This document shows positions 1,569-29,624 of a stretch of DNA of 64,000 nt, piece by piece. The stretch is taken from contig JAFZLD010000025.1 in assembly GCA_017553505.1 (NCBI GenBank), positions 124,001 to 188,000 of the forward strand, in the 5' to 3' direction. The translations under genes and the position numbers were made by a program. Source of the stretch: Lachnospiraceae bacterium. GTDB lineage: Bacteria > Bacillota > Clostridia > Lachnospirales > Lachnospiraceae. Every line of letters begins with the position of its first letter. Positions within the stretch are counted from its first letter, which is position 1. A model generated the notes under the pieces. The model had not been told where the DNA came from. It searched no databases and saw nothing but the letters and a program-made list of their open reading frames with translations.

Positions 1569-3395
1569 ATGCAGATTCTATTGTCTAAAGCAGGATTTAA
1601 GGGATACGGAGCATTTTTTGAAGGCAGCAAGCTCTATGTGTGCGCTGTCTTAAGTCATTTGCACAAGGCCGGCATCGTCCTTTATAACAGCGAGAATCTG
1701 CAGGAGACGAAGAAGATTACTATCCCCGAGGATTACTTTATCGGCGATGTAATGTGCGCGTATCTGACAGGTTCAGAGTTTAAGAATACAGCATATACTT
1801 TCTTTGCAGATGATAAGATTGTCCTCGATCCTTATGCCAGGGCTGTCAGTGAAGACGGAAAGTTTGGATTGGTAGTCAAAGAAAAAGCGTATCCTTCTTT
1901 TGCTTCCGACTCTATGCAGTTTGTAAAGTTTGAAGATTCACTTTTGTATACGCTTAATGTAAGAGGCTATACAATGGCGGATAAGAGCGTTAAGAGCGCT
2001 CGCGGCTCCTTTAAGGGACTTATTCGTAAGATTGATTATATTAAGAAACTGGGGGTCACAGGGGTTATATTTATGCCTTGTTATGAAGTGACAGATGAGG
2101 AGGATTCCAAGACTGCCGCAGACCCTGCTAAGTTAGATTACAAAAAGAACCCTCAGGTTAAAAAGCCCAATCTCTGGGGCTTTGGCAAGGGTTATCACTT
2201 TGCTGTCAAGAAATCCCTTGCATCGTCGGATAACGCTTACGGCGAGCTTCAATCGATGGTTAAGGCTTTTCACGACAAAGGTCTTGAATGCATCTTTATG
2301 ATGCAGTACGAGGAAGATGCAAGCGAAGATTACATTATTGATTCGCTTAAGTACTGGCTTGTTAACTTTCATGCGGACGGCTTCAGGCTTGTAGGTCCGA
2401 ATGTTCACGCGGAGAAGGTTCTTGAATGCCCGTTCTTTAAGAATATAAAGATTATTACCGATGGTATGAACTTCGGCGATTATAAGCCGAATACCGTTAT
2501 GAAGGCACGCAATCTCGGAGCTCTCAATTATTCTTTTATGAACAATGCAAGACGGTTCATAAAGGGTGATGAAGATTTAGTGTCATATTTAAGCTTTGCA
2601 ATAAGGGAAAATGCAAAGTTTTATTCTCCAATCCGTAATATAAGCGATTTCTGGGGCTTCACGCTCTGGGATCTTGTGTCTTACAACATTAAGCACAATG
2701 AGTTAAACGATGAAGCCAATGCCGACGGAACCGATTACAACTACAGCTGGAACTGCGGAGTAGAGGGCGACACGGCCAAGAGAAACGTCAATAAGCTTAG
2801 ATTAAGACAGGCCCGCAATGCGATGCTTCTTATGATGCTTGCGCAGGGCACACCGCAGATTTTGGCGGGAGACGAGTTTCTAAATACTCAGAAGGGTAAC
2901 AACAATCCTTATTGTCAGGATAATGAAATCGGTTGGGTTACCAATCGTAACGATAAGGCATCACGTGATTTCACTAAGTTTGTAATGAATCTTGCGGCCT
3001 TCAGAAAGCGCCACAGTGTGCTTCATCAGCCCAAGGAACTTATGCTTTTTGACTATATGTCATGTAAAGCGCCGGATGTTTCTTTCCACGGCCATGAAGC
3101 GTTCAAAATCGACCAGTCGCCGGTTTCGAGAGAATTCGCGGTACTTTTCTTTGGCGATTACTCCAAGCAGTATACCGGCAAGAAAGAAGACTCGGTTTAC
3201 ATAATATTCAATATGCATTGGGAAAAGAAAGAATTTGTACTTCCCATGACCACAAAGACCAAGCGATGGCGACTGTTGTATTCGACCGGCGGTTCGACAG
3301 ATGAAAGTTTTGATGAATCAAAGGCCGGATTGGTTGAGACTGAATCATATGTGGCAGAGGGCAGAAGTATAAGCGTTTTATTACTTAATTCTTGA
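1569..3395 (+). CDS. GlgX/isoamylase-like GH13 protein lacking catalytic residues (predicted pseudoenzyme)
   Basis: This 608-residue protein follows the glycogen debranching enzyme (GlgX, GH13) layout along its length: a CBM48-like N-terminus, an LDPYARAV segment, VRGYTMADKS, a (beta/alpha)8 barrel, and the GlgX-specific blocks DGTDYNYSWNCGVEG and QGTPQILAGDEF with KGNNNPYCQDNEIGW. The active site is gone. Region I reads CIFMMQYEE (241-249) where active enzymes have a DVVYNH-type motif. Region II reads DGFRLV (270-275), with Val275 at the nucleophile Asp. Region III has Asp298 in ITDGM in place of the acid/base Glu. Region IV has Phe361-Trp362 where GlgX has His-Asp. The frame is intact, so this is not a decayed gene. 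Start chosen at MQILLSK, which has AAAGGCGG upstream; the frame extends further upstream without a site. A role in binding or sensing glycogen is inference only. Confidence 0.85.
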   Translation: MQILLSKAGFKGYGAFFEGSKLYVCAVLSHLHKAGIVLYNSENLQETKKITIPEDYFIGDVMCAYLTGSEFKNTAYTFFADDKIVLDPYARAVSEDGKFGLVVKEKAYPSFASDSMQFVKFEDSLLYTLNVRGYTMADKSVKSARGSFKGLIRKIDYIKKLGVTGVIFMPCYEVTDEEDSKTAADPAKLDYKKNPQVKKPNLWGFGKGYHFAVKKSLASSDNAYGELQSMVKAFHDKGLECIFMMQYEEDASEDYIIDSLKYWLVNFHADGFRLVGPNVHAEKVLECPFFKNIKIITDGMNFGDYKPNTVMKARNLGALNYSFMNNARRFIKGDEDLVSYLSFAIRENAKFYSPIRNISDFWGFTLWDLVSYNIKHNELNDEANADGTDYNYSWNCGVEGDTAKRNVNKLRLRQARNAMLLMMLAQGTPQILAGDEFLNTQKGNNNPYCQDNEIGWVTNRNDKASRDFTKFVMNLAAFRKRHSVLHQPKELMLFDYMSCKAPDVSFHGHEAFKIDQSPVSREFAVLFFGDYSKQYTGKKEDSVYIIFNMHWEKKEFVLPMTTKTKRWRLLYSTGGSTDESFDESKAGLVETESYVAEGRSISVLLLNS

Positions 3396-3420
3396 CCGTA
3401 AGCGCACTATATTGTAGACT
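3392..3420 (+). promoter_or_regulatory. Promoter candidate for trpS
   Basis: TTGACC (3392-3397) and TAGACT (3415-3420) are separated by 17 bases. They overlap the stop codon of the preceding gene and lie about 45 bases upstream of the trpS start. Confidence 0.4.
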
Positions 3421-3463
3421 TTATTTTAATTTATGAAAAAATATATTCGGAGGAATTTTTGAG

Positions 3464-4468
3464 ATGATAGACGGAAAGAAAGTATTATTCAGCGGTATGC
3501 AGGCAACCGGTAACCTGACACTCGGCAATTACCTGGGGGCCTTGAAAAACTGGCTTACCCTTTCCGATGAGTACGAGTGCTTTTACTCTGTTGTGGATTT
3601 ACATTCGATTACTGTAAGACAGGACCCTGCGGAGCTTAGAAGTCGTGCAAGAAAACTGTTGACTTTATACATAGCAGCCGGCTTAGACCCCAAGAAAAAT
3701 TGCATTTATTATCAGTCACATGTAAGCTGCCACGCAGAACTTTCATGGATTTTGAATTGCTTTACTTACATGGGCGAGCTTAACAGAATGACTCAGTTTA
3801 AGGACAAGTCAGCCAAGCACGCGGACAATATCAACGCAGGTCTTTTCACATATCCCGTACTTATGGCTGCGGATATCCTTCTTTACCAGGCAGATGTAGT
3901 GCCTGTAGGTAAGGATCAGCTTCAGCACCTTGAGATTACAAGAGATATCGCTCAGAGATTCAATGCAATCTATGGCGACGTATTCACTATTCCCGAGCCT
4001 TACCTCGGCAAGTCCGGCGCTAAGATCATGAGCCTTCAGGATCCTACCAAGAAGATGAGTAAGTCTGATGAGAACCTTAACGCAAGCATCTATCTTATGG
4101 ATGACAAGGATACCATTATTCGCAAGTTCAAGAGAGCCGTTACAGACTCAGAGGGATGCGTAGCATACAATGATACTCAGCTTGGCATTCACAACCTTAT
4201 CGATATCTACAGCGCTTGCACAGGCAAGACTCCCGAAGAAATTGTTAAGGAATTCGACGGCAAGGGGTACGGCGACTTTAAGCTTGCCGTAGGTGAATCT
4301 GTTGCCGATATTCTTACACCTTTACAGGCTCGTTTCTACGAACTTGAGAAGGATAAAGCATATATCGACGGCATTATCAAAGAAAACGCCGAAAAGGCCG
4401 GTTATTATGCCAACAAGACCTTGAGAAAGGTGCAGAAAAAAGTAGGCTTTCCCGAAAGAATCAGATAA
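3464..4468 (+). CDS. trpS: Tryptophanyl-tRNA synthetase
   Basis: Cytoplasmic class I aminoacyl-tRNA synthetase that charges tRNA-Trp. The 334 residues match the usual bacterial TrpS length. The HIGH-equivalent lies in TGNLTLGNYLGAL near the N-terminus, and the KMSKS loop is exact (KKMSKSDEN, near residue 200). The tryptophan-pocket block YPVLMAADILLYQADVVPVG is also typical. An AGGAGGAATT-like site precedes the ATG. The potABCD genes follow after 27 bases, so trpS may be the first gene of that transcript. The leader is under 70 bases, too short for a T-box. Confidence 0.96.
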   Translation: MIDGKKVLFSGMQATGNLTLGNYLGALKNWLTLSDEYECFYSVVDLHSITVRQDPAELRSRARKLLTLYIAAGLDPKKNCIYYQSHVSCHAELSWILNCFTYMGELNRMTQFKDKSAKHADNINAGLFTYPVLMAADILLYQADVVPVGKDQLQHLEITRDIAQRFNAIYGDVFTIPEPYLGKSGAKIMSLQDPTKKMSKSDENLNASIYLMDDKDTIIRKFKRAVTDSEGCVAYNDTQLGIHNLIDIYSACTGKTPEEIVKEFDGKGYGDFKLAVGESVADILTPLQARFYELEKDKAYIDGIIKENAEKAGYYANKTLRKVQKKVGFPERIR

Positions 4469-4495
4469 TTATACATACGCTGCAAAGGGGTAGAT

Positions 4496-6067
4496 ATGCG
4501 CAAATTAATCCAGTTTCAGAACATCATAAAGGAATTTGACGGTCAGCTCGTACTTAAGGGAATCAATCTCGATATTTACGAGAATGAGTTTGTTACTTTG
4601 CTCGGACCTTCGGGTTGCGGTAAGACAACACTTCTTCGTATTCTCGGCGGCTTTCTTGAGCCCAATCAGGGCCGTGTAATATTCGATGATAAGGATATCA
4701 CGGACTTACCGGCTTATAAGAGAGATTTAAATACCGTATTCCAGAAGTATGCGCTTTTCCCGCATATGAACGTTTATGACAATATTGCTTTCGGCCTTCG
4801 TATTAAGAAAGAGCCCGAAGATATTATTGCGCAGAAGGTTGCACGTATGCTTAAGCTCGTAGGTCTTGAAGACTACGGTAAGCGCGGTGTCAATGAAATG
4901 TCAGGCGGTCAGCAGCAGCGTGTGGCTATTGCGAGAGCGCTTGTTAATGAGCCTAAGGTTCTTTTGCTTGATGAGCCTCTGGGTGCTCTTGACCTTAAGC
5001 TTCGAAAGGAAATGCAGCACGAGCTTAAGAAGATTCAGCGAGAGGTAGGAATTACCTTTATTTACGTTACACACGATCAGGAAGAAGCCCTTACCATGTC
5101 TGATAAGATTGTGGTTATGAAAGCGGGCGAGATTCAGCAGATCGGTACCCCCACAGATATTTACAATGAGCCCGTTAACAGATATGTTGCGAACTTCATC
5201 GGTGAGAGTAATATCGTAGACGGTATTATGCTTGAAGATTACAAGGTTATGTTTGAAGACAAGACCTTTGAATGTGTCGACGCAGGTTTCTCCAAGAACG
5301 AGAACGTTGAGGTTGTAATTCGTCCCGAGGACCTTGAGATTGTAGCTCCCCGTTCCGGTAACCTTAAGGGTATCGTTAAGTCCGTTCTTTTTAAGGGCGT
5401 GCATTACGAGACAATCGTTGAGACTAAGTCCGGTACGGAAATCACCGTTAAGATGAACGTTTCCGATGACAAGCCTGTTGTCAATGAGCTTGCCGAGGAA
5501 ATGATGAGTGCCAACGACTTCTATATCGATCTTGACGACCTTCAGGAGATTACGGACGAATTTATTATAGCAAGAGCCGATGCTCAGGCATGGAATCCCG
5601 CTACAGAAGAGCGTATTTCAATTCATTCCGTTAATTATGAAGCTGCTCCCGAGTACGGAACATACCCTGTTACATTCTCTACTCAGGCAGGTACTTCCGT
5701 AACCGTTAACATGATTATCGAAGAAGAGAACAGAGTAGTTAATCAGGAGTATGAAGAAGAAATCTTTGCGGTTAACTTCTTTAAGAATGCCGATGAAATT
5801 CAGGAGTCTATTGCTCTTGAAACAGACTTAAAGACATGGGCCAACGCTTCGGCCTGGAGCCTTGAAGATGGTTCGCCCGTAACCATTACAGAAGTTGTAT
5901 ACGACTTCGACCCTGCGACCGTTGAACCGGGTGTATATAATGTAACCTTTAAAACCGAAGGTTATGAATATAAAGTTGATACGACCAAGGAAACCAAGGT
6001 GGGAGATGCTGTAGGACTTAAGTTCACACCCGACGCTCTTCATATCATGGTTAAGCAGAACTACTAA
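4496..6067 (+). CDS. potA: Spermidine/putrescine ABC importer ATPase PotA with two inserted Ig-like repeats
   Basis: ATPase of a polyamine-type importer, acting at the cytoplasmic face with PotB and PotC. It has Walker A (GPSGCGKTT), the signature [15 protein letters not shown], Walker B ([12 protein letters not shown]) and the H-loop (YVTHDQEEA), then a TOBE-type regulatory domain. It is unusually long: 523 residues against roughly 350-380 for PotA. The excess is two repeats of about 86 residues, starting near residues 328 and 414. Each begins VVN and later carries an AxAW segment and a GxYxVTF segment, resembling Ig-like repeats of Gram-positive surface proteins. They split the TOBE domain, whose last strand ([17 protein letters not shown]) resumes at the C-terminus. 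ATPase residues are intact. The start has weak purine spacing (AAAGGGGTAGAT). Confidence 0.92.
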
Positions 6068-6080
6068 AGAGGGAGCGAAG

Positions 6081-6920
6081 ATGAAACAATTCCGTAAAAT
6101 GGTTTATCCGTACCTTCTTTGGAGTACGGTGGTTATAGCGGTTCCGATGCTTCTTATTTTGCTTTATGCATTTACTTCGGGAGGCAATTCGGTATCCAAG
6201 TTTATGTTCAGTCTCCACAATTTTAAGAGATTCCTTACCGACAAGACTTTCCTTGAAGTTTTGTACAGATCTTTAAGAATTGCGGTTGAAACTACGGTAG
6301 TGTGTGTTCTCCTCGGATATCCCGCGGCTTATATTATTGCCAAGTATTCGGAGAAGGTTAAGATGCGTTGGGTGCTCGTTATTACGCTTCCCACGTGGAT
6401 TAACATGCTTGTAAGAACATACGCATGGACCGGTATTTTGCAGGAAGACGGTGTTATTAACAGCTTTCTCGGGCTTTTCGGTATAGGACCCGTGACGTTT
6501 ATGTATACGGACTTTGCCGTAATTCTGGGTATGGTTTATAACTTCCTTCCTTTTATGATTATCCAGATATATACGTCCCTTACCAAGATGGATTATAGTT
6601 TGATAGAGGCTGCAAGCGATCTCGGAGCCAATCCCCGCAAATGCTTTACGAAGGTTACGCTTCCTTTGTCCATGCCCGGAGTAATCAGTGGTATTACATT
6701 GGTATTCCTTCCCTCTGTATCAAGCTTCTGTATTCCCAGAATGTTGGGCGGCGGATCGTATGTTATGGTCGGAACTATAATTGAATCACAGTTTTTAACA
6801 GCCGGCGACTGGAACTTCGGTAGTGCCATTTCACTTATTATGGCAATCATAATAATGATTTCGATGTACATTACCAAGAAAGTCGACAAGGGCGAGAAGT
6901 TGGAGGCGATTAACGCATGA
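6081..6920 (+). CDS. potB: Spermidine/putrescine ABC transporter permease PotB
   Basis: Inner-membrane permease of 279 residues with about six hydrophobic segments, the first at residues 10-30. The EAA loop that contacts the ATPase is seen as EAASDLGANPRKCFTKVTLP, followed by the usual MPGVISGI segment. It lies 13 bases after potA with GAGGGAG upstream of its ATG, and overlaps potC by four bases (ATGA), implying coupled translation. Substrate specificity (polyamine rather than, for example, iron) rests on the whole potABCD set and is inferred from the family. Confidence 0.92.
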   Translation: MKQFRKMVYPYLLWSTVVIAVPMLLILLYAFTSGGNSVSKFMFSLHNFKRFLTDKTFLEVLYRSLRIAVETTVVCVLLGYPAAYIIAKYSEKVKMRWVLVITLPTWINMLVRTYAWTGILQEDGVINSFLGLFGIGPVTFMYTDFAVILGMVYNFLPFMIIQIYTSLTKMDYSLIEAASDLGANPRKCFTKVTLPLSMPGVISGITLVFLPSVSSFCIPRMLGGGSYVMVGTIIESQFLTAGDWNFGSAISLIMAIIIMISMYITKKVDKGEKLEAINA

Positions 6921-7729
6921 GTAAGAAGAAAAAGAAAATCGGCTCCACAGTATTCATGGTTTTGATGGTGCTTTTCCTGTATGCGCCGATTATATACACA
7001 ATGGTATTTTCTTTTAACGAAGGCAAGTCCCTTACGAATTTCACCGGCTTTTCGCTTAAGTGGTATTCGAAGATGTTTGCCAATAAGACGATGATGGAAT
7101 CGCTCTTTTATACAATTGCCTGTGCGGTTCTTGCAACAGCAATTTCGACGGTTGCAGGTACCATTACGGCAATCGGTTTGTCTAAGTCCAGACGTGCCGT
7201 TAAGAGCGTTGTGGAACAGCTCAATCAGCTTCCCATCATGAATCCCGAAATAGTTACGGCTATCGGACTGTTGATGTTATTCAGCGCCATTCATATCGAG
7301 AAGGGTTTCTTTACGATGCTTGTAGCGCACATAATGTTCTGTATTCCTTACGTAATACTCAGCGTTATGCCCAAGCTTCGTACCCTTAACCCCAACATCG
7401 CCGAGGCCGCTATGGATTTGGGTGCGACTCCCTGGCAGGCACTTACCAAGGTTATTGTGCCTCAGTGTATGCCCGGTATTATTTCGGGCGCTTTGATAGC
7501 GTTTACGATGTCGTTTGACGACTTTGTAATATCGTATTTCGTAACAGGTAACGGTGTCAGCAACATCTCGATTCTGGTATACACCGAGTCAAGACGTGTT
7601 AACCCGTCCATCAACGCGCTTTCGACACTTATTGTGCTTATAATTACCGTAGCGCTTATACTTGTTAATGTTATTCCTTCCATAGCAAGCAAGAAAGAAG
7701 CCAAGCTTGCAGTGGATAAAGATATATAG
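6917..7729 (+). CDS. potC: Spermidine/putrescine ABC transporter permease PotC
   Basis: Second permease, 270 residues, with an N-terminal membrane segment (TVFMVLMVLFLYAPIIYTMV) and the EAA loop EAAMDLGATPWQALTKVIVP. The motif SFDDFVISYFVTG near the C-terminus is characteristic of PotC. The ATG overlaps the potB stop (ATGA). Together with PotB it forms the membrane channel of the importer. Confidence 0.93.
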   Translation: MSKKKKKIGSTVFMVLMVLFLYAPIIYTMVFSFNEGKSLTNFTGFSLKWYSKMFANKTMMESLFYTIACAVLATAISTVAGTITAIGLSKSRRAVKSVVEQLNQLPIMNPEIVTAIGLLMLFSAIHIEKGFFTMLVAHIMFCIPYVILSVMPKLRTLNPNIAEAAMDLGATPWQALTKVIVPQCMPGIISGALIAFTMSFDDFVISYFVTGNGVSNISILVYTESRRVNPSINALSTLIVLIITVALILVNVIPSIASKKEAKLAVDKDI

Positions 7730-7746
7730 TTTCAGGAGGATTTAAA

Positions 7747-8808
7747 ATGAAAAAAGGATGGCTTGTTTCTTTGGCCGTGCTTGCACTTTCCATGATGTGC
7801 TTAACCGGTTGCGGCTCAAAAGAAAAACTTAAAATATACCTTCCCGGAGAGTATATGAGCGACGAACTTGTTCCCAATTTCGAGAAGCAGTACAACTGCA
7901 AGGTAGACGTGGAACTTTTCGACAGCAACGAAATGATGTATACGAAGGTTATGGCAGGCGACAGCTACGATGTGCTCATTCCTTCAGACTACATGATTGA
8001 AAGACTTATCAAAGAAGATTATCTTCAGAAGATTGACGTATCTAAGCTTTCTAACTTTGGTAGCGTAACAGATGCACTTAAGGTAGCTCCTTACAACGGA
8101 TTCGATCCCGACAATTCATACTCGGTTCCCTATTTCTGGGGCTCTGTAGGTATTGTTTACAATCAGAACAATGTACCTACATCGGAAGTTGAGGCTAAAG
8201 GTTTCGAAATCATGAAGGATACCAAGTATTCCGGAAAGATTTACATGTACGACAGCGAGAGAGACAGCTTCATGATTGCTTTCAAATCTCTCGGTTATTC
8301 TATGAATACTAATGAAGAGTCAGAGATTATGGCAGCATATGACTGGCTTGTAGAGCTCAACACCACTATGGCGCCTACAACTGTAACCGACGAAGTTATC
8401 GACGGCATGGCTCAGGGACGTAAGGACCTTGCTATTGTATACAGCGGTGATGCGGCTTACATTCTTTCAGAGAACGAAGACATGCGTTACTACACACCCG
8501 AATGCGGCACCAACGTATGGGTAGACGCTATGGTTATTCCCAAGAACGCCAAGAACGTAGACCTCGCTTACAAGTTCATAGACTATGTAATCAGCTACGA
8601 TGCGGCTATGGGCAATACCGAGGCTGTAGGATATGCATCCGTTAACAAAGACGTTCTTGCAGAAGTAACCAAAGAAGGCGGCCTTTACGACGGTAACGAA
8701 GCATACATTCCTCGTACTGGATTTGCCAAGGACGAAGTATTCACAGACAATGAATTCCTTCGTAAGAAATTATCGGAGCTTTGGATTAAAGTTAAAGCAA
8801 GCAACTAA
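7747..8808 (+). CDS. potD: Spermidine/putrescine-binding lipoprotein PotD
   Basis: Extracellular substrate-binding component, 353 residues. It starts with a lipoprotein signal peptide ending in the lipobox LTGC (lipid-modified Cys22), and then shows a periplasmic-binding-protein fold of the PotD/PotF group, with typical blocks NFEKQYNCKVDVELFDSNE, YDVLIPSDYMIERL and YFWGSVGIVYN. A strong AGGAGGA site precedes the start. It is the last gene of the trpS-potABCD run and is followed by a terminator. The ligand is not proven by sequence; polyamine is the family expectation. Confidence 0.92.
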   Translation: MKKGWLVSLAVLALSMMCLTGCGSKEKLKIYLPGEYMSDELVPNFEKQYNCKVDVELFDSNEMMYTKVMAGDSYDVLIPSDYMIERLIKEDYLQKIDVSKLSNFGSVTDALKVAPYNGFDPDNSYSVPYFWGSVGIVYNQNNVPTSEVEAKGFEIMKDTKYSGKIYMYDSERDSFMIAFKSLGYSMNTNEESEIMAAYDWLVELNTTMAPTTVTDEVIDGMAQGRKDLAIVYSGDAAYILSENEDMRYYTPECGTNVWVDAMVIPKNAKNVDLAYKFIDYVISYDAAMGNTEAVGYASVNKDVLAEVTKEGGLYDGNEAYIPRTGFAKDEVFTDNEFLRKKLSELWIKVKASN

Positions 8809-8814
8809 TAATAA

Positions 8815-8846
8815 ACCCTCGGCATCACTGCCGAGGGTCTTTTATT
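8815..8846. terminator. Bidirectional intrinsic terminator between potD and the lactonase-like gene
   Basis: A perfect 10-bp stem (8815-8824 with 8829-8838) has a TCAC loop and is followed by CTTTTATTA. The opposite strand also ends in a T-rich run, so the hairpin can serve both converging genes. Confidence 0.85.
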
Positions 8847-8849
8847 ATC

Positions 8850-9929
8850 TTATTTAGTTTCTTTGGTCTCTTTGGGAGCCTCTTCCTCAAGTTTCTTAAA
8901 TACTATACAGTTGGGCTTCTCTATCTTAATCTCGGGACCGTTCATAATCAGAGTCTTTAGCTCAGGATCCACATTAAAGAATGTAAGAGTATCAGACTCG
9001 TTGTTACACGATACTAAGTGCTTACTGTCAGGGAAGAGCGATACATCCTTCGGATATTCACCACTTATAGGTAAGCAGAAGAGCTTCTCAAGTGTTCCGT
9101 CCTGCAAAATCTTATAAAGGCATACACTGTTGTCACCTGCATTGGAAGCGGTAATATACTTAAAGTCATAAGAAATATTTACGCTGCTGGCCGCATTACC
9201 CTTGGCATGATAATCGTTAAGAGTCGAGATGGTCTGAATCTTTTCGAATACAGGGTTGCCGTTTCCTTTATTTTCATAAGAGTATACATCAATATAATTT
9301 TTAAGCTCATGTACGATGTATAAATACTTGCCGGATTTGGAGAACTTTAAGTGTCTCGGAGCAGATTCCTGCTCGGAACGAATAATATCTACGAGCTTAA
9401 GCTTGCCGGTAGAGTGGTTCATGGAATATACGTTAACGTGATCCATGCCGAGGTCTGCTGCCAGGAGATATTCATTGTCACGGGTCATCTTTACGCAGTT
9501 TACGTGAGGATGGAAGTTTCTTTCGGAAACGGTACCCATACCCTTTAAATAGATTTCTTCGGTAATGTCGCCGACAGCTCCGCCGGGCTTTAATTTAAGA
9601 ACTGTAATCTTACCGTCGTGGTAACCTGCGACGAAGAGGAACTTGTCCTGATAATCTGTTGAAATGTAGCAGCCGCGCATACCGTTTATCGACTGCATAT
9701 TAACTTTCTTAAGCATACCGTCTGGAAGAATCTTGTAGCTTTCAACACCCAGGTCGGTAATTGTATAGAGGAATTTCTGACTGTGGGAAATGGTGATGTA
9801 AGAGGAGTTGGAAACTTCTACAACGCCTTTCTTGGTAAAGCGTCCTTTCTTCATATCCACATCAAAAATTGTTATACCGAACTTTTCGTTCTGGGTATAG
9901 CTTGATACATACGCAACGTATTTATTCAT
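8850..9929 (-). CDS. Seven-bladed beta-propeller lactonase-family protein (6-phosphogluconolactonase type)
   Basis: The 359 residues match the lactonase/Pgl beta-propeller family (YkgB-like), with repeated blade sequences. The diagnostic blocks are HPHVNCVKMTRDNEYLLAADLG and APRHLKFSKSGKYLYIVHEL. Some members hydrolyse 6-phosphogluconolactone; many are uncharacterised, so the substrate is not assigned here. The start codon overlaps the aroC stop by eight bases, so the two genes are translationally coupled on the minus strand. The C-terminal tail is lysine/glutamate rich. No signal peptide is visible, so it is probably cytoplasmic. Confidence 0.82.
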   Translation of the reverse strand: MNKYVAYVSSYTQNEKFGITIFDVDMKKGRFTKKGVVEVSNSSYITISHSQKFLYTITDLGVESYKILPDGMLKKVNMQSINGMRGCYISTDYQDKFLFVAGYHDGKITVLKLKPGGAVGDITEEIYLKGMGTVSERNFHPHVNCVKMTRDNEYLLAADLGMDHVNVYSMNHSTGKLKLVDIIRSEQESAPRHLKFSKSGKYLYIVHELKNYIDVYSYENKGNGNPVFEKIQTISTLNDYHAKGNAASSVNISYDFKYITASNAGDNSVCLYKILQDGTLEKLFCLPISGEYPKDVSLFPDSKHLVSCNNESDTLTFFNVDPELKTLIMNGPEIKIEKPNCIVFKKLEEEAPKETKETK

Positions 9930-10926: not shown

Positions 10927-11092
10927 CGGTAATTGTCCTTTTTGCGTATTTTGTGTACTCATTTATAATAACATATGACAATTGTTAAACAAATAAAAAA
11001 TGTAAAAAATCGAGTGTGATTTAACGAAAGTTATGATATAGTATTTATGTGAAAAGAATGGCTGGGGGCAATGGGAATTTTCGAGGTGCGTT

Positions 11093-19779: not shown

Positions 19780-19808
19780 TTGACAAAAAAATATCAAAAT
19801 ATAATAAT
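19780..19808 (+). promoter_or_regulatory. Promoter of serC-serA
   Basis: A consensus -35 TTGACA (19780-19785) is followed by an A/T-rich -10 region. TAATAA at 19802 gives a spacer of 16 bases, and AATAAT at 19803 gives 17. This lies about 35 bases upstream of serC. Confidence 0.6.
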
Positions 19809-19840
19809 ACATATTAAATATTTTTTAGGAGGATGAGAAA

Positions 19841-22105: not shown

Positions 22106-22111
22106 TATTAA

Positions 22112-22159
22112 CCCCCTTTATATAGACTGCTTTGTTTATGTGAAGGGGGATTTTATTTT
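22112..22159 (+). terminator. Intrinsic terminator after serA
   Basis: CCCCCTTTA and TGAAGGGGG pair across a loop of about 20 bases and are followed by ATTTTATTTTT, just after the serA stop. Confidence 0.65.
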
Positions 22160-22181
22160 TATAAAGGGATATGTAGGGTAT

Positions 22182-24014
22182 ATGAATAAAAAGAACGCAT
22201 TTAAGAATAATATCTATGCGCTGAAACTTGTATGGAAAATGTCTAAACCGCTTATTATCACAAACGGTATAGCAAGTTTCCTGGATTATTTTGAGTGGTT
22301 GTTTTTCAGTGCTTTTTTCTTACGAATTCTTATAAACGGTTTAGAGACCGGTCAGGAATTCTCCAAATTATTAACGTTTATCGTAATATGTATTGGAACA
22401 CTTGGTTTCATTTCTCTTTTCCATTCTGTAAGGACAAGAAAATGGCTTCCGGTATTTAAGACAAAGGTCAATAAGGAACTGTTTAAGATACTGTTCAAAA
22501 AAGCATCAAACGTAGAGCTTGAATGCTTTGAAAATAGTGACTTCTACGACAAGTACACCCTTGCCATGGAAAAGTCAGATGAAAGGCTTACACGTACAAT
22601 CGAAGTTATCTGGGGAGTTTTCTTTGGCGCAATAGCCAGCGTCTGCGCCTTCATATTTATGTACCGGGTAGACAAATACTCGGTGCTGTTCATTATTTTC
22701 CCCATAATCGGAAACTTCGGCTTCAACAGACTGCAGAGCAAGATTGACTACAACCGTAATAAGGATATGGCTCCGCACAATCGTAAGATTTCATACATCA
22801 ACCGTGTAATGTATCTTACTCAGTATGCCAAAGAAATGCGTCTGTCAGATGTGTTCACCCTCATGAGAGAAGAATACAGGGGCGCAATCCGAGGCGTAAC
22901 CGATGTGACAAGAAAGTATACAAAGAAAGCAATGGTGCTTCATTGGTTCTACGTAATGTTTACTTTTACATTTATCTTTGAAGGCCTGCTGATTTATGGC
23001 GCTTACAGAACATTGGTATCTTACACAATGACACTTGCACAGTTATCGGTTATTACCAGCTTGATGGTTTCCACAACATGGATTCTTATAGGCTTTACGG
23101 ATTCGGTAACGGAACTTTTCAAGAACGGCTTGTTTGTGGACTATCTCAAGACTTTCCTTGAGTACAAGGAAAAGATACCGGAAGATTACGACGGTGCAGA
23201 CCCGGATGATACCATTGAGTCAATTGAGTTTAAGAATGTTTCTTTTGCTTATAAGGACAAAGAAGTAATCAAGAACCTCAACATGAAGTTTGAAGGCGGC
23301 AAGACCTATGCGCTTGCAGGACACAACGGAGCGGGCAAGACCACGATTATTAAGTTGTTGTTGCGTTTCTACGACCCTACGGAAGGCGAGGTGCTTCTCA
23401 ACGGAAGAAATATCAAGGAATACAATCTGCAGAAGTATCGGGCGCTGTTTGCGACCGCTTTCCAGGACCATCAGATGTTCTCGATGTCTGTTAAGGACAA
23501 CGTTTTAATGGGTCACAAGACCGAGGGTGATGCGACAGAGAAGGTATTAAATGCATTGAAACTCGCGGGAGTGTATGACAAGGTTATGTCTCTTCCGTAC
23601 AAAGAAAATACAATACTTACCAAGGAATTTGACGACGAAGGAGCTATTCTTTCGGGCGGTGAGTTCCAGAAGGTTGTTGTTGCCAGAGCTTTTGTACAGA
23701 ATAGCCCCGTTAAGCTATTTGACGAGCCGTCGAGTGCGCTTGACCCGATAGCGGAATATACGTTGTTTGATAACATTCTTAAATCTTGTAAGGACAATAC
23801 GCTTGTATTTATTTCACACAGATTATCATCTGTTCAGAACGCAGACAAGATATTCTTGCTTAGGCATGGAACCGTTAGAGAAGAAGGTTCTCACAAGGAA
23901 CTCATGGCTCTTGATGGTTTGTATGCGGATATGTACCGCAAACAGGCCGAAAATTATCTTGCAGGTAGCCATGAAACCTCCGACGGAATCTTTAAGGAGG
24001 TGGCAAAAGCATGA
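22182..24014 (+). CDS. ABC exporter half-transporter (ATPase-permease), first of a pair
   Basis: 610-residue protein with an N-terminal membrane domain of several helices followed by a nucleotide-binding domain: Walker A (GHNGAGKTT), signature LSGGEFQK, Walker B ending in LFDEPSSALDP, and switch His in FISHRLSS. All ATPase residues are intact. The start at MNKKNAFKNN is preferred, as the upstream extension reads through the terminator hairpin. It overlaps the next gene by four bases (ATGA), so the two probably form a heterodimer. Substrate unknown; drug, lipid or peptide export are the family options. No peptidase domain is present. Confidence 0.86.
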   Translation: MNKKNAFKNNIYALKLVWKMSKPLIITNGIASFLDYFEWLFFSAFFLRILINGLETGQEFSKLLTFIVICIGTLGFISLFHSVRTRKWLPVFKTKVNKELFKILFKKASNVELECFENSDFYDKYTLAMEKSDERLTRTIEVIWGVFFGAIASVCAFIFMYRVDKYSVLFIIFPIIGNFGFNRLQSKIDYNRNKDMAPHNRKISYINRVMYLTQYAKEMRLSDVFTLMREEYRGAIRGVTDVTRKYTKKAMVLHWFYVMFTFTFIFEGLLIYGAYRTLVSYTMTLAQLSVITSLMVSTTWILIGFTDSVTELFKNGLFVDYLKTFLEYKEKIPEDYDGADPDDTIESIEFKNVSFAYKDKEVIKNLNMKFEGGKTYALAGHNGAGKTTIIKLLLRFYDPTEGEVLLNGRNIKEYNLQKYRALFATAFQDHQMFSMSVKDNVLMGHKTEGDATEKVLNALKLAGVYDKVMSLPYKENTILTKEFDDEGAILSGGEFQKVVVARAFVQNSPVKLFDEPSSALDPIAEYTLFDNILKSCKDNTLVFISHRLSSVQNADKIFLLRHGTVREEGSHKELMALDGLYADMYRKQAENYLAGSHETSDGIFKEVAKA

Positions 24015-25810
24015 AAAATGTATTGAAAAATCACCTCTTTCTGTGGAAACTCTGCTTTAAGACCTGCCCCGGTTATATGCTTTATTTCCTTTATGACGGC
24101 TTCAGATATCAGGGCGTTATCTTTATCGAACATGTACTGGGTATTAACTATGTACTTAAGTGTGCAGAGTTCCATGAGCCTTTTAAGAAGGCGTTTATTT
24201 ACATAGGCATAATCTTACTGATAAATATAATACAGATTATCCCCGACGGCTTCTTTATCCACGGATGGAGCTTCAGGGCCAAGCCTAAGATTTATAAAGC
24301 TCTTAAAGAAAAAATGTATGCCAAAGCCGCAGAAATCGATTTGTCCTGCTATGACGATCCTAAGTATTATAACGACTTTGTGCTTGCGGTTTCTGAGTCA
24401 GAGAGCAGTATCGACAGGTTCTTAACACTTTGCAATAACCTGGTGCAGGGACTGACGATTCTTTTTACAACAGGTGTGTTCTATTTGGTGGTAGATAAGA
24501 CCGGTATTTTGTTCGTGTTTGTTTCGTTTGTGTTCAGGTTCTTTATTTCAAAGGCTATGAACAAAGTTAACGTTGATACACGTGTGAAAATCAATCCCAA
24601 GGAACGCAAACGTAATTACGTAAGCAGACTTTTCTATCTCAAGGATTATGCCAAGGAATTGCGTCTCCACCCCGAAGTAGGTGCATCGCTTTCCAAAGAG
24701 TTTGAGGAAGCGGATGATGAAATAATGGATATTCAGAGAAAAGTAGGTACTAAGTTAAGTCTGCTTGAGTATATCAGAACGTATATTGTCGACACGTTCT
24801 TGCTCGACGGACTTTATATTACCTATCTGGTATTTAGTGCAGCGGTTCTTCATACGATTTGTTACAGTGATGCTGTTACGCTCTTTAACAGAACCGGAAG
24901 CTTGAGAAGGGGTATGGCTACTTTTGCCGACCTTGTTCCGAGTATGCACGAGAACAGCCTGTATGTTGATAAGATCAGAGCTTTCCTCGATTACGAAGTA
25001 AAGATTAAAGCAGACGAAGGTCGTGAAGTCGCTAAGGGACCTGGAGAAATCGTAATCGACAATCTCAGTTTCTCGTACAAAGAAGGCGGCAAGAAAGTCC
25101 TTGATAATATAAGCCTTCGTGTCAAACCTTGCGAGAGAGTTGCCATAGTCGGTTATAACGGTACGGGCAAGACTACACTTATTAAGCTTTTGATGCGCTT
25201 ATATGACCCCACAGAGGGCAGCATCAGCTATCACGGCGAGAACATTAAGAAATATAAGCCTCGCGACTACAGGCACAAAATCGGCGTAGTATTCCAGGAT
25301 TTCCAGATGTATGGAGCAAGACTGTCCGAGAACGTTGTAATGAGCAATATTGAGAATCAAGATTACGAAAGTCTGAAGAAGCCGATCACCGATGCATTGC
25401 TTAATGCAGGATTTGAGAAGCGTCTTAAAAAACTCGATAAAGGTCTTGATACCATGGTTACAACAGAGTTTGACGAGGCGGGAGTAGATTTCTCCGGAGG
25501 CGAAAGCCAGAAGATAGCTATTTCAAGAGCATTCTATAAAGATGCCGATATTCTTATCATGGACGAGCCTTCAAGCGCACTCGATCCTATAGCCGAGTAT
25601 GAACTTAACAAAGCAATGGAATCGGCAGCTATCGGAAAGACTGTGTTCTATATATCGCACAGACTCTCGACCACAAGAGATGCGGACAGAATCATAATGC
25701 TTGAGAACGGTCATATTATCGAAGAAGGTACACATGATTCCTTGATTAAAATGAACGGTAAGTATGCTGAGATGTGGAATGCACAGGCAGGTAAGTATGC
25801 GATAAGCTAA
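24011..25810 (+). CDS. ABC exporter half-transporter (ATPase-permease), second of a pair
   Basis: 599 residues with the same membrane domain plus ATPase layout as the preceding gene. Walker A is YNGTGKTT, the signature FSGGESQK, Walker B ILIMDEPSSALDP, and the switch His lies in YISHRLST. Both ATP sites of the presumed heterodimer therefore look competent, unlike many heterodimeric exporters with one degenerate site. A good GGAGG site lies just upstream, inside the first gene. Substrate not identifiable from sequence. Confidence 0.86.
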   Translation: MKNVLKNHLFLWKLCFKTCPGYMLYFLYDGFRYQGVIFIEHVLGINYVLKCAEFHEPFKKAFIYIGIILLINIIQIIPDGFFIHGWSFRAKPKIYKALKEKMYAKAAEIDLSCYDDPKYYNDFVLAVSESESSIDRFLTLCNNLVQGLTILFTTGVFYLVVDKTGILFVFVSFVFRFFISKAMNKVNVDTRVKINPKERKRNYVSRLFYLKDYAKELRLHPEVGASLSKEFEEADDEIMDIQRKVGTKLSLLEYIRTYIVDTFLLDGLYITYLVFSAAVLHTICYSDAVTLFNRTGSLRRGMATFADLVPSMHENSLYVDKIRAFLDYEVKIKADEGREVAKGPGEIVIDNLSFSYKEGGKKVLDNISLRVKPCERVAIVGYNGTGKTTLIKLLMRLYDPTEGSISYHGENIKKYKPRDYRHKIGVVFQDFQMYGARLSENVVMSNIENQDYESLKKPITDALLNAGFEKRLKKLDKGLDTMVTTEFDEAGVDFSGGESQKIAISRAFYKDADILIMDEPSSALDPIAEYELNKAMESAAIGKTVFYISHRLSTTRDADRIIMLENGHIIEEGTHDSLIKMNGKYAEMWNAQAGKYAIS

Positions 25811-25818
25811 AAATGAAA

Positions 25819-25844
25819 AGCCCTTATCTTAACAGATAAGGGCT
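25819..25844. terminator. Terminator hairpin between the ABC pair and the 93-residue unknown gene
   Basis: A perfect 11-bp stem (25819-25829 with 25834-25844) has a TAAC loop. The T-rich tail (TTTTCATTTTT) is on the minus-strand side, so it best serves the minus gene, with weaker use on the plus strand. Confidence 0.75.
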
Positions 25845-25870
25845 GAATAATACTACAGGTTTATGATTCC

Positions 25871-26152
25871 TTAAAATTGCTCAAACGCCATCGGGTCACC
25901 GTACTTGGTCATATCACCCATGGTGCTTTGAAACTTTCTTTCGGTTAAGAGAGCGGCGTCGGAAGCGGCGTCCATGTACTGAATGAAGATGTCTTCGACA
26001 GGATCGCCGAGCTCCTTGGAAAGCTCTTCCATAATGGGTTTAAGCTTCTCTAACTGAAAAGAAATCTTGGTCTTCTCGGGGTCGATTCCTTCGAGTACTT
26101 TATCTGCGTATTCACTCACTTTATCAAGAATGTATTTACTTTTGTTTTCCAT
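25871..26152 (-). CDS. Unknown small protein (93 residues)
   Basis: I do not recognise this protein. It is predicted to be mostly helical and charged, without a membrane segment, signal peptide or cysteine. Features that can be seen are a DPEKTKISFQLEKLKPIMEE stretch and a C-terminal half containing DIFIQYMDAASDA and FQSTMGDMTKYGDP. It is a real gene by its good AAAGGAAC ribosome binding site, a terminator after its stop and a plausible promoter. It is divergent from the DUF1015 gene. Confidence 0.7.
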   Translation of the reverse strand: MENKSKYILDKVSEYADKVLEGIDPEKTKISFQLEKLKPIMEELSKELGDPVEDIFIQYMDAASDAALLTERKFQSTMGDMTKYGDPMAFEQF

Positions 26153-26204
26153 GACAGTTCCTTTCTTAACGAATATTGACTAAATTATAATACCACCATT
26201 TTCG

Positions 26205-26238
26205 TTGTTTTGAATTAAAAATTTTGATAAAATATTTT
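26205..26238 (+). promoter_or_regulatory. Promoter of the DUF1015 gene
   Basis: Two overlapping solutions exist: TTGTTT-17-TAAAAT with an extended TGA before the -10 (26228-26233), or TTGAAT-17-TATTTT. Both lie 40-70 bases upstream of the start. Confidence 0.45.
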
Positions 26239-26280
26239 AGGAATCATTTGTTCTGAAGATTCCGACATTGGAGGTTATGT

Positions 26281-27522
26281 ATGGCTCTCATTAAACCCTT
26301 TCAGGCAGTGAGACCCGCTCAGGGGCTTGAATCTTTAATTGCCGCTTTACCCTATGACGTTTATAACAGATCGGAGGCCAAGGAAGTTGTGTCTAAGAAT
26401 GACAAGACCTTTCTTAAGATAGACCGCGCGGAAACAACCCTTCCCGATGACGTCGATACATATGACCCGCGTGTATACGCCAAGGCCAGACAGCTTTATG
26501 AAGAAATGCTGGGTAAAGGCGAATTTGTCAAAGAAAATAAGCCTTGTTATTATCTCTACGAAGAGACCATGAACGGTCGCGCACAGACAGGTCTTGTATG
26601 CGCCGCATCCGTAAGAGATTATGAAACCGGCGTAATTAAGAAACACGAGAACACCCGAGCTGACAAGGAAGTTGACCGCATCAATCACGTTGATACTGTC
26701 GATGCTCAGACAGGTCCTATTTTTCTTGCATACAGAAATGACGAGAAGCTCAATGCTTTCTTAGAAAATATTAAAACGTTGGAGAAGCCTTATTTTGACT
26801 TCGTATCCGATGACGGTATTCGTCACAGAGGATTTAAGATTGATTCCGATGATGAAATTAAGTTTATTACGGATTCTTTTGCCAAAATTCCGAATCTTTA
26901 TATAGCCGATGGCCATCATAGATGTGCTTCGGCAGCCAAGGTTTCGATTAAGAGACGAGAAGAGGCGACGACCGTTGACGAGAACGCCGAATACAATTTC
27001 TTTTTAAGTGTGGTATTTCCTGATTCCGAACTCATGATTATGGATTATAATAGAGTTGTAAAGGACTTAAACGGCTTGTCGGAAGAAGAGTTTATCGCAC
27101 GTGTGTCTGAGAAGTTTGAAGTGCAGTCGATTGCCGTAAGTGACAATAAACCGGCTCATAAAGGCGATATTTATATGTTGCTTAAGGGTAAGGAATATTG
27201 CATTTCGCTTAAGGATGAATATGTTAGCGACGATCCGATTAAAGCTCTTGATGTTTCGAAGCTTCAAGATTATCTCTTAAATCCGATTCTTGGTATTGAA
27301 AACCCCAAAACCGATAAGAGAATCGATTTTGTAGGAGGAATAAGAGGTGTCAAGGAACTTTGGAGAAGACTTGAGACTGATTCAACGGTTGCTTTTGCAA
27401 TGTATCCGACATTAATGAGTGAGCTTTTTGCGGTTGCGGATGCGGGACTTTTAATGCCGCCCAAATCCACATGGTTTGAGCCCAAGTTACGAAGCGGTTT
27501 GTTTATACACGAATTACAATAA
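26281..27522 (+). CDS. DUF1015 family protein
   Basis: The 413 residues match DUF1015, a conserved family without an established activity. Its signatures are the N-terminal IKPFQAVRP block, the GPIFLAYRN segment and, near residue 210, the ADGHHRCASA motif. That motif resembles the GHHR motif of ParB/sulfiredoxin-fold proteins such as the free-serine kinases SerK and SbnI. DUF1015 genes are often found near serC and serA in Clostridia, and here serCA lie 4 kb upstream with the ABC pair in between. A link to phosphoserine metabolism is therefore a reasonable inference, not a demonstrated function. The start has TTGGAGG upstream. Confidence 0.85.
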   Translation: MALIKPFQAVRPAQGLESLIAALPYDVYNRSEAKEVVSKNDKTFLKIDRAETTLPDDVDTYDPRVYAKARQLYEEMLGKGEFVKENKPCYYLYEETMNGRAQTGLVCAASVRDYETGVIKKHENTRADKEVDRINHVDTVDAQTGPIFLAYRNDEKLNAFLENIKTLEKPYFDFVSDDGIRHRGFKIDSDDEIKFITDSFAKIPNLYIADGHHRCASAAKVSIKRREEATTVDENAEYNFFLSVVFPDSELMIMDYNRVVKDLNGLSEEEFIARVSEKFEVQSIAVSDNKPAHKGDIYMLLKGKEYCISLKDEYVSDDPIKALDVSKLQDYLLNPILGIENPKTDKRIDFVGGIRGVKELWRRLETDSTVAFAMYPTLMSELFAVADAGLLMPPKSTWFEPKLRSGLFIHELQ

Positions 27523-27539
27523 ATTCTAAAGGGGAATAT

Positions 27540-29624
27540 ATGGACAACAAACTTTATAAGCTTATGAACTGGCCTGAGATTGAGAGTATTGTTTATTCGG
27601 AGTGCGATCATCCTCAGGAGATTCTTGGCATGCATCCTGTACAAGGGGGATTCCTTATTCAGGCATTCTTTCCCAATCACAGTTCTGTTTCGGTTTATAA
27701 CAAGACAGCCGACAGATATTATGATATGGAGCTTGTGGATGAGGAAGGCTTCTTTGCGCTGTTTGTGCCGGCCAAGGCTCCCTTTTCATACGAATATATA
27801 GTTAAGAACGGAAGCGGCGATGAAATAAGACTTCCGGAAGTATATTCTTATATTCCCAAATTCTGGCTTAATCTTAAGGACAAGCTTTTAAGCGGAGTTT
27901 TCTACGATTCTTACAAGTATCTCGGTGCGCACTTCTGTGAGAGAAAAGAGGTTCTTGGTACAGAGTTCATCACTTATGCTCCGGGAGCCGAACGTGTAAG
28001 CGTTATCGGTGATTTCAACGGGTGGGACGGACGTATTCATCAGATGTGTAAGATTGATGAGTGTGGTATTTTCGGACTTTTCATTCCCGGTGTTTCTATC
28101 GGAAGCTTATACAAGTACGAAATCAAATTGACGAGCGGACTTACCTATGCCAAGAGAGACCCTTATGCATTCTCGCTTGAAAAAGGTGTTGGTGACGCTT
28201 GCAGAGTAATTGACGATCCCGATTGGGAGCATGTTAAGTATAAGAGAGCGCATATCAGCGATGCTTTTACTGTTTTAAACCTTTCTTTGCGCGATATATT
28301 TACACACTATGCCAAAGAAAACGTTGCTGATTTTGTTATAAATACGGTCAAAGAATACGACTATGACGCAGTGCTCTTTGAAGATTTTTCTTTTTGCGAC
28401 AACAGAGTCGTGACCGAGTGGGGCAAGCTTTCTTTCTTCAGCGTATGTCCCGAGGTATGCAGGCTTAAGGATTTGATCGATATAATCGATAAGATTCATG
28501 CTGCAGGCATTAAGGTTCTTTCGACTATCGATATTTCTTCGTTCCTGCCTGATAACGGCGGACTTCGAGGATATGACGGAAGCAGGATGTTTGAAGTCGA
28601 TAATACAGAGGTGTTTGGGGCGCTTTCTTTTAACTTCGAGAGTGCATATGTGCGTAATTACCTGATAAGTGTATGCGATTACTTCATTAGGGTTCTGAGC
28701 CTTGATGGTATTGCTGTAGGTGGCCTTGACCGTATATTGTATCTTGATTACGGCAAGGGTGACGGAGAGTGGAGAGCCAATATTTACGGCGGCAATGAGA
28801 GCATCGGCGGTCATGAATTGATTAAGCATCTCAATTCTTTCCTTCATAAGAATTATTCCAATATCTGTACTGTTGCAAAAGACTCCATGGTGTCCAATAA
28901 CCTGACACTTTCTCTTGATGAAGACGGTATGGGTTTTGATTTTAAGCTTCATACGCAGTTTGACAAGGATCTGTTCAATTATTTGAAGAACGATTATAAG
29001 GATCGTCCTGCTCATCACAGTGAGCTTACTTACAGTCCTGTTTATATTTATTGCGAGAAGTTTATTCTTTCGTTCCTGTACAGTGATTACGGTAAGGATA
29101 AGGGCAGATTTTTCGCGTGCCTTCCCGGTGATGATGAGCAGAAGACTGCCAATTTGAGACTGGCGGTAAGTTATTTGTTCGCTCATCCCGGAAGAAAATG
29201 TTTGTCATTCTGCAATTTTGACAGCCTTAAGACCAAGACTTTGGTCAAAGAACTGATAGAGCTTTATAAGACTCATTCTGCGCTTAATACACTTGATGAT
29301 GAAGAAGCCGGCTTTAAGTGGGTCAATGCAATCGATTCGGAACACAGTGTTGTAAGCTTTGAGAGAAGCTCGGGCGATGAGACTTTACTTGTGGTATGTA
29401 ACTTCTCGGATAAGACATTAAGCTATAAACTCGGTGTGGATGAAGGCTCATACAAAGAAATATTTGCGTCTGAACAAATTAAGTACGGCGGACTCTATAA
29501 AATGAGCGGAAGAGCCAAGGAAGCGAAAGCTGCAAAGCGTGACGGTAAGATGCATGAACTTACATTAAAGCTTTGTCCTTTATGCCTTCACATTTATGCA
29601 AAATCCACTTGCCAAAACGATTAG
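27540..29624 (+). CDS. GlgB-like GH13 protein lacking catalytic residues (predicted pseudoenzyme)
   Basis: 694 residues laid out exactly like glycogen branching enzyme: an N1 domain (DHPQEILGMHP), a CBM48 (RVSVIGDFNGWDGR then GSLYKYEIK), a GH13 barrel and a C-terminal beta domain. Family blocks outside the active site persist, for example RILYLDYGKGDGEW, DEDGMGFDFK and PGDDEQKTANLRLA. Catalytic positions are all changed. Region I has Thr329 and Ser334 for Asp and His. Region II is DGIAVG (389-394), with Ala392 for Arg and Gly394 for the nucleophile Asp. Region III is VAKDS, with Lys447 for the acid/base Glu. Region IV has Phe512-Leu513 for His-Asp. The frame is intact and AAAGGGGAA precedes the ATG. 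It starts 17 bases after the DUF1015 gene. Glycan binding or enzyme regulation is inferred only. Confidence 0.86.
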   Translation: MDNKLYKLMNWPEIESIVYSECDHPQEILGMHPVQGGFLIQAFFPNHSSVSVYNKTADRYYDMELVDEEGFFALFVPAKAPFSYEYIVKNGSGDEIRLPEVYSYIPKFWLNLKDKLLSGVFYDSYKYLGAHFCERKEVLGTEFITYAPGAERVSVIGDFNGWDGRIHQMCKIDECGIFGLFIPGVSIGSLYKYEIKLTSGLTYAKRDPYAFSLEKGVGDACRVIDDPDWEHVKYKRAHISDAFTVLNLSLRDIFTHYAKENVADFVINTVKEYDYDAVLFEDFSFCDNRVVTEWGKLSFFSVCPEVCRLKDLIDIIDKIHAAGIKVLSTIDISSFLPDNGGLRGYDGSRMFEVDNTEVFGALSFNFESAYVRNYLISVCDYFIRVLSLDGIAVGGLDRILYLDYGKGDGEWRANIYGGNESIGGHELIKHLNSFLHKNYSNICTVAKDSMVSNNLTLSLDEDGMGFDFKLHTQFDKDLFNYLKNDYKDRPAHHSELTYSPVYIYCEKFILSFLYSDYGKDKGRFFACLPGDDEQKTANLRLAVSYLFAHPGRKCLSFCNFDSLKTKTLVKELIELYKTHSALNTLDDEEAGFKWVNAIDSEHSVVSFERSSGDETLLVVCNFSDKTLSYKLGVDEGSYKEIFASEQIKYGGLYKMSGRAKEAKAAKRDGKMHELTLKLCPLCLHIYAKSTCQND

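Follow-up and report, generated by a model that had tools for sequence, protein, structure and literature searches.

Two full-length GH13 pseudoenzymes in a Lachnospiraceae genome: a GlgX-like and a GlgB-like protein with separate histories of catalytic loss

Two genes whose products resemble enzymes of glycogen metabolism, one GlgX-like and the other GlgB-like, were analyzed in a 64,000-nucleotide stretch of a Lachnospiraceae bacterium genome (GenBank assembly GCA_017553505.1, contig JAFZLD010000025.1, positions 124,001 to 188,000), hereafter called the window. Both products were revealed to be real, full-length pseudoenzymes of glycoside hydrolase family 13 (GH13) under selection, whose replaced catalytic residues point to a loss of activity. 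With modest confidence, we favor the reading that they are two separate non-catalytic glucan-binding proteins, each acting as a scaffold or regulator, and not the parts of one system.

Results

The catalytic columns of both proteins were taken from alignments to solved enzymes and intact homologues. In the GlgX-like protein, the nucleophile Asp was found to be replaced by Val (GFRFDLA to GFRLVGP), the acid/base Glu by Asp, and the region IV His-Asp by Phe-Trp. In the GlgB-like protein, Ala and Gly stand in place of the region II Arg and the nucleophile Asp (GIRxDAV to GIAVGGL), Lys in place of the acid/base Glu, and Tyr-Ser in place of the region IV His-Asp. Both reading frames are open and full length, and neither protein carries the GH13 catalytic Asp-Glu-Asp; each scored below the curated cut-off of its family model, namely, 258.9 bits against 640.9 for the GlgX model TIGR02100 and 344.7 bits against 463.95 for TIGR01515. 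The description of both proteins as full length and devoid of GH13 catalytic residues, given in an initial annotation of this DNA, was thereby borne out. Its claim of a shared His-to-Phe change at region IV was not, since the GlgB-like protein has Tyr at this position and the column varies again among the dead proteins of sister species (sequences that have lost catalytic residues are called dead below). Orthologues were also read in the genus, and none of the 17 GlgX-like or 13 long GlgB-like proteins had the catalytic set, some of these rows being contig-end fragments.

Despite the replacements, family features were retained in both proteins. The GlgX-like protein keeps the isoamylase-type loops that follow region IV in active GlgX rows, NYSWNCGxEG and GNNNxYCQDN. 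For the GlgB-like protein, Pfam detected the N-terminal (N1), CBM48, and C-terminal domains but no barrel at E 0.001; the barrel was seen in the structure model and its fold matches, which completed the domain order N1, CBM48, barrel, C-terminal. This model, with a mean predicted local distance difference test (pLDDT) value of 84.1 and low confidence at three barrel loops (residues 289-293, 349-358, and 405-417), had branching enzymes as all of the best 50 fold matches listed, and the predicted structure retains the branching-enzyme fold.

Both genes were shown to evolve far from neutrality and are not decaying. The ratio of nonsynonymous to synonymous substitution rates (dN/dS, Nei–Gojobori estimates) was determined against the two nearest relatives, G214 and G206. 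It was 0.063 for the GlgX-like gene against G214 and likewise 0.063 against G206 (487 codons), and 0.035 and 0.055, respectively, for the GlgB-like gene, the values against G206 being rough owing to dS above 1 for both genes. Against G214, the 24 other genes computed gave 0 to 0.054 (YajC omitted; three genes cut short by the ends of the stretch), so that the GlgX-like gene was the fastest of the stretch while five other genes exceeded the GlgB-like gene. Neither a ratio near 1 nor a broken frame, as expected of a pseudogene, was thus found for either protein. The view of the initial annotation that the loss exceeds chance decay was upheld by the uniform absence of the catalytic set in the genus together with ratios far below 1. 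An absence of purifying selection, which the annotation had named as a refutation of its proposal of a pair, was not observed. As a separate observation, the GlgX-like matches of two other genomes, G014 and G122, hold stop codons (one TGA and one TAA in the former, one TAA in the latter) and may be true pseudogenes or assembly errors.

The GlgX-like query matched 164 of 200 sampled genera of the family (E up to 1e-10) and 17 of the 18 genomes of the genus; seven of the 164 matches were weak (above about 1e-60) and possibly represent only true GlgX, so 157 genera were counted as having the gene. In the 76 genera read (75 of the family plus the genome of the window), the frame was open in every case and the catalytic set was kept in none, the row L225 having Asp at the nucleophile column without its catalytic partners. 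All 20 active-type GlgX rows, drawn from this family and others of the class, retained the set. When 36 dead rows were placed in a tree with 20 active ones, by a quick search with no bootstrap and with no plant sequence included, the two groups were separated by a branch with Shimodaira–Hasegawa-like approximate likelihood ratio test (SH-aLRT) values of 95 for the dead and 91 for the active group. One old loss in an ancestor within the family would suffice for this pattern, and the inactivation was probably of single origin.

Among 291 genomes sampled from the class, 32 had matches. The dead kind occurred in the genome of the window and seven others, all Lachnospiraceae, and two other members of the family and three of the same order were listed without a GlgX-like match. 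Six strong matches in other families (L338-L343) retained the catalytic set, and the remaining 18, which were weak and covered the N-terminal half, were taken for pullulanases unread. Judged from these matches, the dead GlgX-like clade was found only in Lachnospiraceae within the class sample.

The clade was also shown to possess residues of its own. K214 and E382 are present in 100% of 77 dead rows, at positions where 18 active rows have Asn (89%) and Trp (83%), respectively, and D495 is present in 97% of the dead rows, at a position that is a gap in 89% of the active ones. When residues invariant in 12 active rows were scored as retained if kept by at least 12 of 13 dead rows, 31 of 46 were retained after region IV, versus 2 of 26 in the stretch before region IV; the first barrel half retained 17 of 66 and the N-terminal part 6 of 18. 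At two loci, L315 (G126:C6:62000-74000) and L316 (G133:C30:149000-160000), an intact GlgX and a dead GlgX-like gene lie a few kb apart.

The long GlgB presented a different history. Its orthologue was found in 13 of the 18 genus genomes (one partial), and all 13 lack the catalytic set; no long GlgB match was found in two nearly complete sister genomes, G204 (97%) and G210 (98%), both of which carry the dead GlgX-like gene. The best long GlgB was read in 96 of the 200 sampled genera, the other 104 having none or being unread: 67 were intact, 28 had lost at least one catalytic carboxylate, and one had another change, in a sample drawn by likeness to the dead query, whose fractions are hence not family frequencies. 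In three of these 28 genera the sole change is at the nucleophile, where Asn or Ala replaces Asp, and in two it is at the stabilizer; residual activity is possible in these five. At the level of named loci, a carboxylate was lost in 34 of 80, including those of seven genomes of Butyrivibrio strains that bear no metagenome-assembly label, and 31 of the 34 had lost both nucleophile and acid/base.

Two features of individual rows deserve mention. In several dead lineages the nucleophile Asp is lost and an Asp lies one residue on (RVADIAK, RLTDISK, and RFPDIAK versus RMDAVAS), which resembles a recurrent shift; the rows concerned are L255, L258, L272, L273, L275, L300, L301, L276, and L278, along with other dead GlgB. 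The long GlgB of L261 reads HDEHD at the five catalytic positions (RDEHD when intact), only the region II Arg being changed, to His; its activity is uncertain, and it was treated as non-intact in the DUF1015 count and as intact in the loss counts given below.

The gene order around long GlgB was compared between dead and intact loci. A DUF1015 gene was found 5' of long GlgB at 36 of 54 non-RDEHD loci (three of them cut by a contig edge) and at 50 of 67 intact loci, some genomes being included twice; no such gene was seen next to dead GlgB in G205 or G211. The order SerC-SerA-DUF1015-GlgB was common to dead and intact genes, and many loci of both kinds add LeuB-IlvD-IlvB-YkuD before and ArgH-ArgC after it. 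By its position, the GlgB-like gene is orthologous to the active long GlgB of the family and was inactivated in place. An origin as a dead paralogue, through recent duplication of an active gene, was disfavored, since dead and intact long GlgB share the position beside DUF1015, in a comparison that did not extend to second long GlgB matches (e.g., in G009, G092, G171, G054, and G002).

Losses were then mapped on a phylogeny built from housekeeping proteins encoded in the GlgB stretch (at most seven per locus), covering 58 of 89 loci after 31 with fewer than three markers were dropped. The dead state needs five changes on this tree, four of them forced by starred branches. With L261 treated as intact and catalysis assumed not to be regainable, the losses numbered six on the tree as drawn and four when forks under SH-aLRT 80, or under 95, were collapsed. 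This mapping supports several independent losses of GlgB catalysis, Butyrivibrio strains included, of which four are supported and six appear on the best tree.

The domains of long GlgB were shown to differ in how far they remain constrained. Mean identity among 15 intact rows was highest in the barrel (73.6%), followed by CBM48 (64.9%), the C domain (50.2%), and N1 (46.4%), whereas among eight dead rows of the genus the order was CBM48 (65.4%), N1 (56.3%), barrel (45.8%), and C domain (41.0%); the two sets differ in depth, and the order within each outweighs the numbers between them. Residues invariant in the intact rows were kept by all eight dead rows at 26 of 34 positions in CBM48, 12 of 17 in N1, and 9 of 17 in the C domain, and at 31 of 138 in the barrel. 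In seven dead rows of the Butyrivibrio type, the identities were 60.9% for N1, 58.0% for CBM48, 54.6% for the C domain, and 53.8% for the barrel. The focus of constraint in dead GlgB has therefore shifted away from the barrel, toward N1 and CBM48.

The initial annotation had further proposed that the two proteins were inactivated in parallel, as a pair inherited together. The GlgX-like loss fits one old event and the GlgB loss is recurrent, and the two dead genes were distributed independently, the outcome that the annotation had named as refuting the pairing. Of 28 genera with dead GlgB, 26 had the GlgX-like gene, compared with 55 of 67 with intact GlgB; without four weak-match genera, the figures were 26 of 27 versus 55 of 64 (Fisher p = 0.27). 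The genes lie 24 kb apart in the window, and 5-41 kb separate the GlgX-like gene from long GlgB in 21 of 28 cases in the family with both on one contig; 16 of these 21 close pairs involve an intact GlgB and five a dead one, so that the proximity is accounted for by a conserved housekeeping gene order common to intact GlgB. True GlgX was present in 13 of 28 dead-GlgB and 17 of 67 intact-GlgB genera (p = 0.055). There was no sign of one loss driving the other, and co-inheritance of the two dead genes was largely refuted.

The genome of the window (3.13 Mb, 28 contigs, 99.68% complete) was also surveyed for other glycogen enzymes. It carries an intact short GlgB (L038), a form that retains all five catalytic positions in the 16 genus genomes read, together with an intact type I pullulanase (L036), GlgA, and GlgD with a GlgC-like neighbor that would be GlgC. 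True GlgX was not found, the best match to the GlgX model having E 5.3e-59, and no active isoamylase partner of the ISA1 type was seen in the same search. Branching and debranching capacity nevertheless seem to be present without the two window proteins, as judged from the intact genes. True GlgX scores about 610-687 bits and was counted in 55 of the 200 family genera, 34 of them over the curated cut-off, with partial matches of this kind in two more (G042 and G048); GlgA was found in 194 of the 200, which renders its presence profile uninformative. The closest named record is Lachnospiraceae bacterium YSD2013 (97% identity), and assemblies from rumen or ruminant metagenomes account for several further close records.

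The positions of the features are summarized in Table 1. The open reading frame (ORF) listed for the GlgX-like gene opens at 1449, and the tabulated start is an estimate from homology in the genus, which begins at about residue 34-45 of that frame, apart from two fragmentary rows that begin only later. This gene is flanked by a gene for a UvrD-like helicase on one side and a tryptophanyl/tyrosyl-type tRNA synthetase gene (called TrpS) on the other, and the GlgB-like gene by the DUF1015 gene and by tRNA-Thr plus argH. The UvrD-like helicase gene keeps its position in relatives beyond G214 with an identity of just 26-41%, which is fast for a helicase.

Table 1. Positions of the two pseudoenzyme genes, their catalytic columns and domains, and neighboring genes in the window
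Feature	Positions	Strand	Basis
GlgX-like (isoamylase-type GH13) protein without catalytic set, 608 aa	1569..3395	+	ORF, family models, alignments
GlgX-like codon V275, catalytic nucleophile (Asp) column	2391..2393	+	
GlgX-like codon D298, acid/base (Glu) column	2460..2462	+	
GlgX-like codons F361-W362, region IV His-Asp columns	2649..2654	+	
GlgB-like protein (long form) without catalytic set, 694 aa	27540..29624	+	ORF, Pfam, family models, alignments
N1 (N-terminal) domain of GlgB-like protein, better conserved than the barrel in the dead genus set	27570..27830	+	
CBM48 domain of GlgB-like protein, equally conserved in the dead genus set and the intact set	27921..28169	+	
GlgB-like codons A392-G394, replacing region II Arg and nucleophile Asp	28713..28721	+	
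GlgB-like codon K447, acid/base Glu column	28878..28880	+	
GlgB-like codons Y514-S515, region IV His-Asp columns	29079..29084	+	
DUF1015 gene, immediately 5' of GlgB-like gene, marker of the positional orthologue in other genera	26281..27522	+	
argH-argC (named by Pfam domains), conserved 3' neighbors in the genus and some other genera	29889..32523	+	
tRNA-Thr (cgt), between GlgB-like gene and argH	29661-29735		
UvrD-like helicase gene, adjoining GlgX-like gene	2-1096		

Discussion

In the reading that we favor, the GlgX-like protein, a member of an old dead isoamylase clade of Lachnospiraceae, would still bind branched glucan and play a scaffolding or regulatory part similar to that of plant ISA2; glucan binding is suggested because the isoamylase-type loops are kept alongside the clade's own K214, E382, and D495. 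The GlgB-like protein would have ceased to be catalytic at its original locus, in the continued presence of an intact short GlgB, and would have retained a glycogen-binding role via N1 and CBM48, the domains that selection keeps best. Candidate partners would be GlgA, short GlgB, or pullulanase.

Several observations weigh against this reading. The N-terminal (CBM48-like) part of the GlgX-like clade is weakly conserved (25.2% vs 53.0% among active GlgX), which argues against this part as its binding unit, and the structure model of the protein is poor (pLDDT 49.9), so that the cleft cannot be judged from it. True GlgX was not seen in 104 of the 157 genera having the GlgX-like gene, and an ISA1-like partner therefore cannot be general; of the 36 genera that lack the GlgX-like gene, 32 still have GlgA, so that this gene is not required for glycogen synthesis everywhere. 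In dead GlgB, the C domain is relaxed as well. In the accessible part of a report on the cytosol proteome of B. proteoclasticus, pullulanase and glycogen phosphorylase were identified, and the words GlgB and branching are absent from it (PMC5217386). Finally, a FastTree phylogeny of GlgB itself groups most dead rows in one long-branched clade; this grouping was distrusted as possible long-branch attraction, and the tree of neighboring housekeeping proteins was used instead. One shared early weakening of the GlgB gene may be an alternative to repeated loss.

Other explanations were considered along with two separate glucan-binding pseudoenzymes. The strongest of them, though unlikely, is that the proteins are non-catalytic with a role other than glucan binding, for instance in sensing a metabolite or in assisting the assembly of a different enzyme. 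Residues peculiar to the GlgX-like clade would suit such a role, as would the binding of c-di-GMP to Streptomyces GlgX described in the portion of PMC9530166 available to us, but the best-kept parts are CBM48 and N1 in GlgB and, in the GlgX-like protein, the loops shared with active GlgX. That the catalytic residues were instead relocated, giving a new or altered glucan activity, is distinctly less probable. The Asp one residue after the lost nucleophile in several dead GlgB lineages (RVADIAK in Butyrivibrio versus RMDAVAS) and the invariant, dead-specific K214 and E382 of the GlgX-like clade are in its favor; however, many dead rows have Lys, Arg, Ala, or Gly in place of the acid/base Glu, with letters differing between lineages, and neighboring residues of a strand would be expected to point in different directions.

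An obligate pseudoenzyme pair of joint origin, forming one complex on glycogen, is improbable. The frequency of both genes in the genus (13 and 17 of 18 genomes) and their spacing of 5-41 kb in 21 family genera would agree with it, but their inactivation histories differ, dead GlgB and the GlgX-like gene show no association, G204 and G210 hold the latter alone, and the proximity is a gene order shared with intact GlgB. Slowly decaying pseudogenes left open by chance, for which the lost catalytic residues, the fast-diverging dead GlgB barrel, and the stop codons of G014 and G122 might speak, are very improbable in view of dN/dS of 0.035-0.063, a result that contradicts them, and of the uninterrupted frames seen in all 76 genera read and, except for contig-end fragments, throughout the genus.

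On the preferred reading of two separate non-catalytic proteins, we tentatively propose, as a wider possibility that we hold with less than even confidence, that Lachnospiraceae organize glycogen with non-catalytic GH13 proteins: a widespread counterpart of ISA2, mostly without an active isoamylase partner, and a long GlgB turned in place into a glycogen-binding protein several separate times, presumably because short GlgB made its catalysis dispensable while N1-CBM48 stayed useful. Tallies of glgB and glgX genes can also suggest more catalytic capacity than a gut or rumen genome really has. No bacterial non-catalytic GlgX or GlgB was found in the titles and abstract openings of the literature searched, a scope that left subscription papers and preprints outside, and novelty is accordingly not proven.

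Among known systems, the GlgX-like protein shares its sequence family (TIGR02100) and its two loops with GlgX and TreX, from which it differs by the missing catalytic set and a score far under the curated cut-off. The GlgB-like protein agrees in domain order and predicted fold with the long N1-CBM48 branching enzymes (3K1D, 9U77, and Cyanothece 5GQU) and is the positional orthologue of active family members, but has lost the residues of regions II, III, and IV, with a relaxed barrel. An orthologous gene that has repeatedly become non-catalytic in place, while its binding domains took over as the constrained part, would offer a natural series from enzyme to scaffold. GlgD, also present in this genome, is likewise a non-catalytic paralogue within the glycogen pathway, of a fold and at a pathway step different from those of GH13 proteins. 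It differs further in that its partner is known, GlgD being called the regulatory subunit of GlgC in the consulted part of PMC10395257. In a chlamydial GlgA-GlgB fusion, the branching domain is described as inactive, which the excerpted text ascribes to genome rearrangement and gene fusion and not to residue loss in a free-standing protein (PMC11046441).

The closest likeness is to plant ISA2, which, according to the available sections of PMC12510319, lacks the nucleophile and most other catalytic residues through a loss that dates back to an ancient shared ancestor, and remained under selection. The GlgX-like protein is likewise an isoamylase-type GH13 protein that is old, conserved, and without its nucleophile, and ISA2 chains were among its solved-structure matches, ranked below GlgX, TreX, and ISA1. 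Unlike ISA2, it is bacterial, is not known to form a complex or to have a glucan phenotype, and shows no true GlgX partner in most of the genera that carry it. Why a non-catalytic isoamylase stays selected in plants is called not understood in the same sections (PMC12510319), and a bacterial analogue of ISA2, found in some lineages beside true GlgX and in most without it, would make this question testable in simpler organisms.

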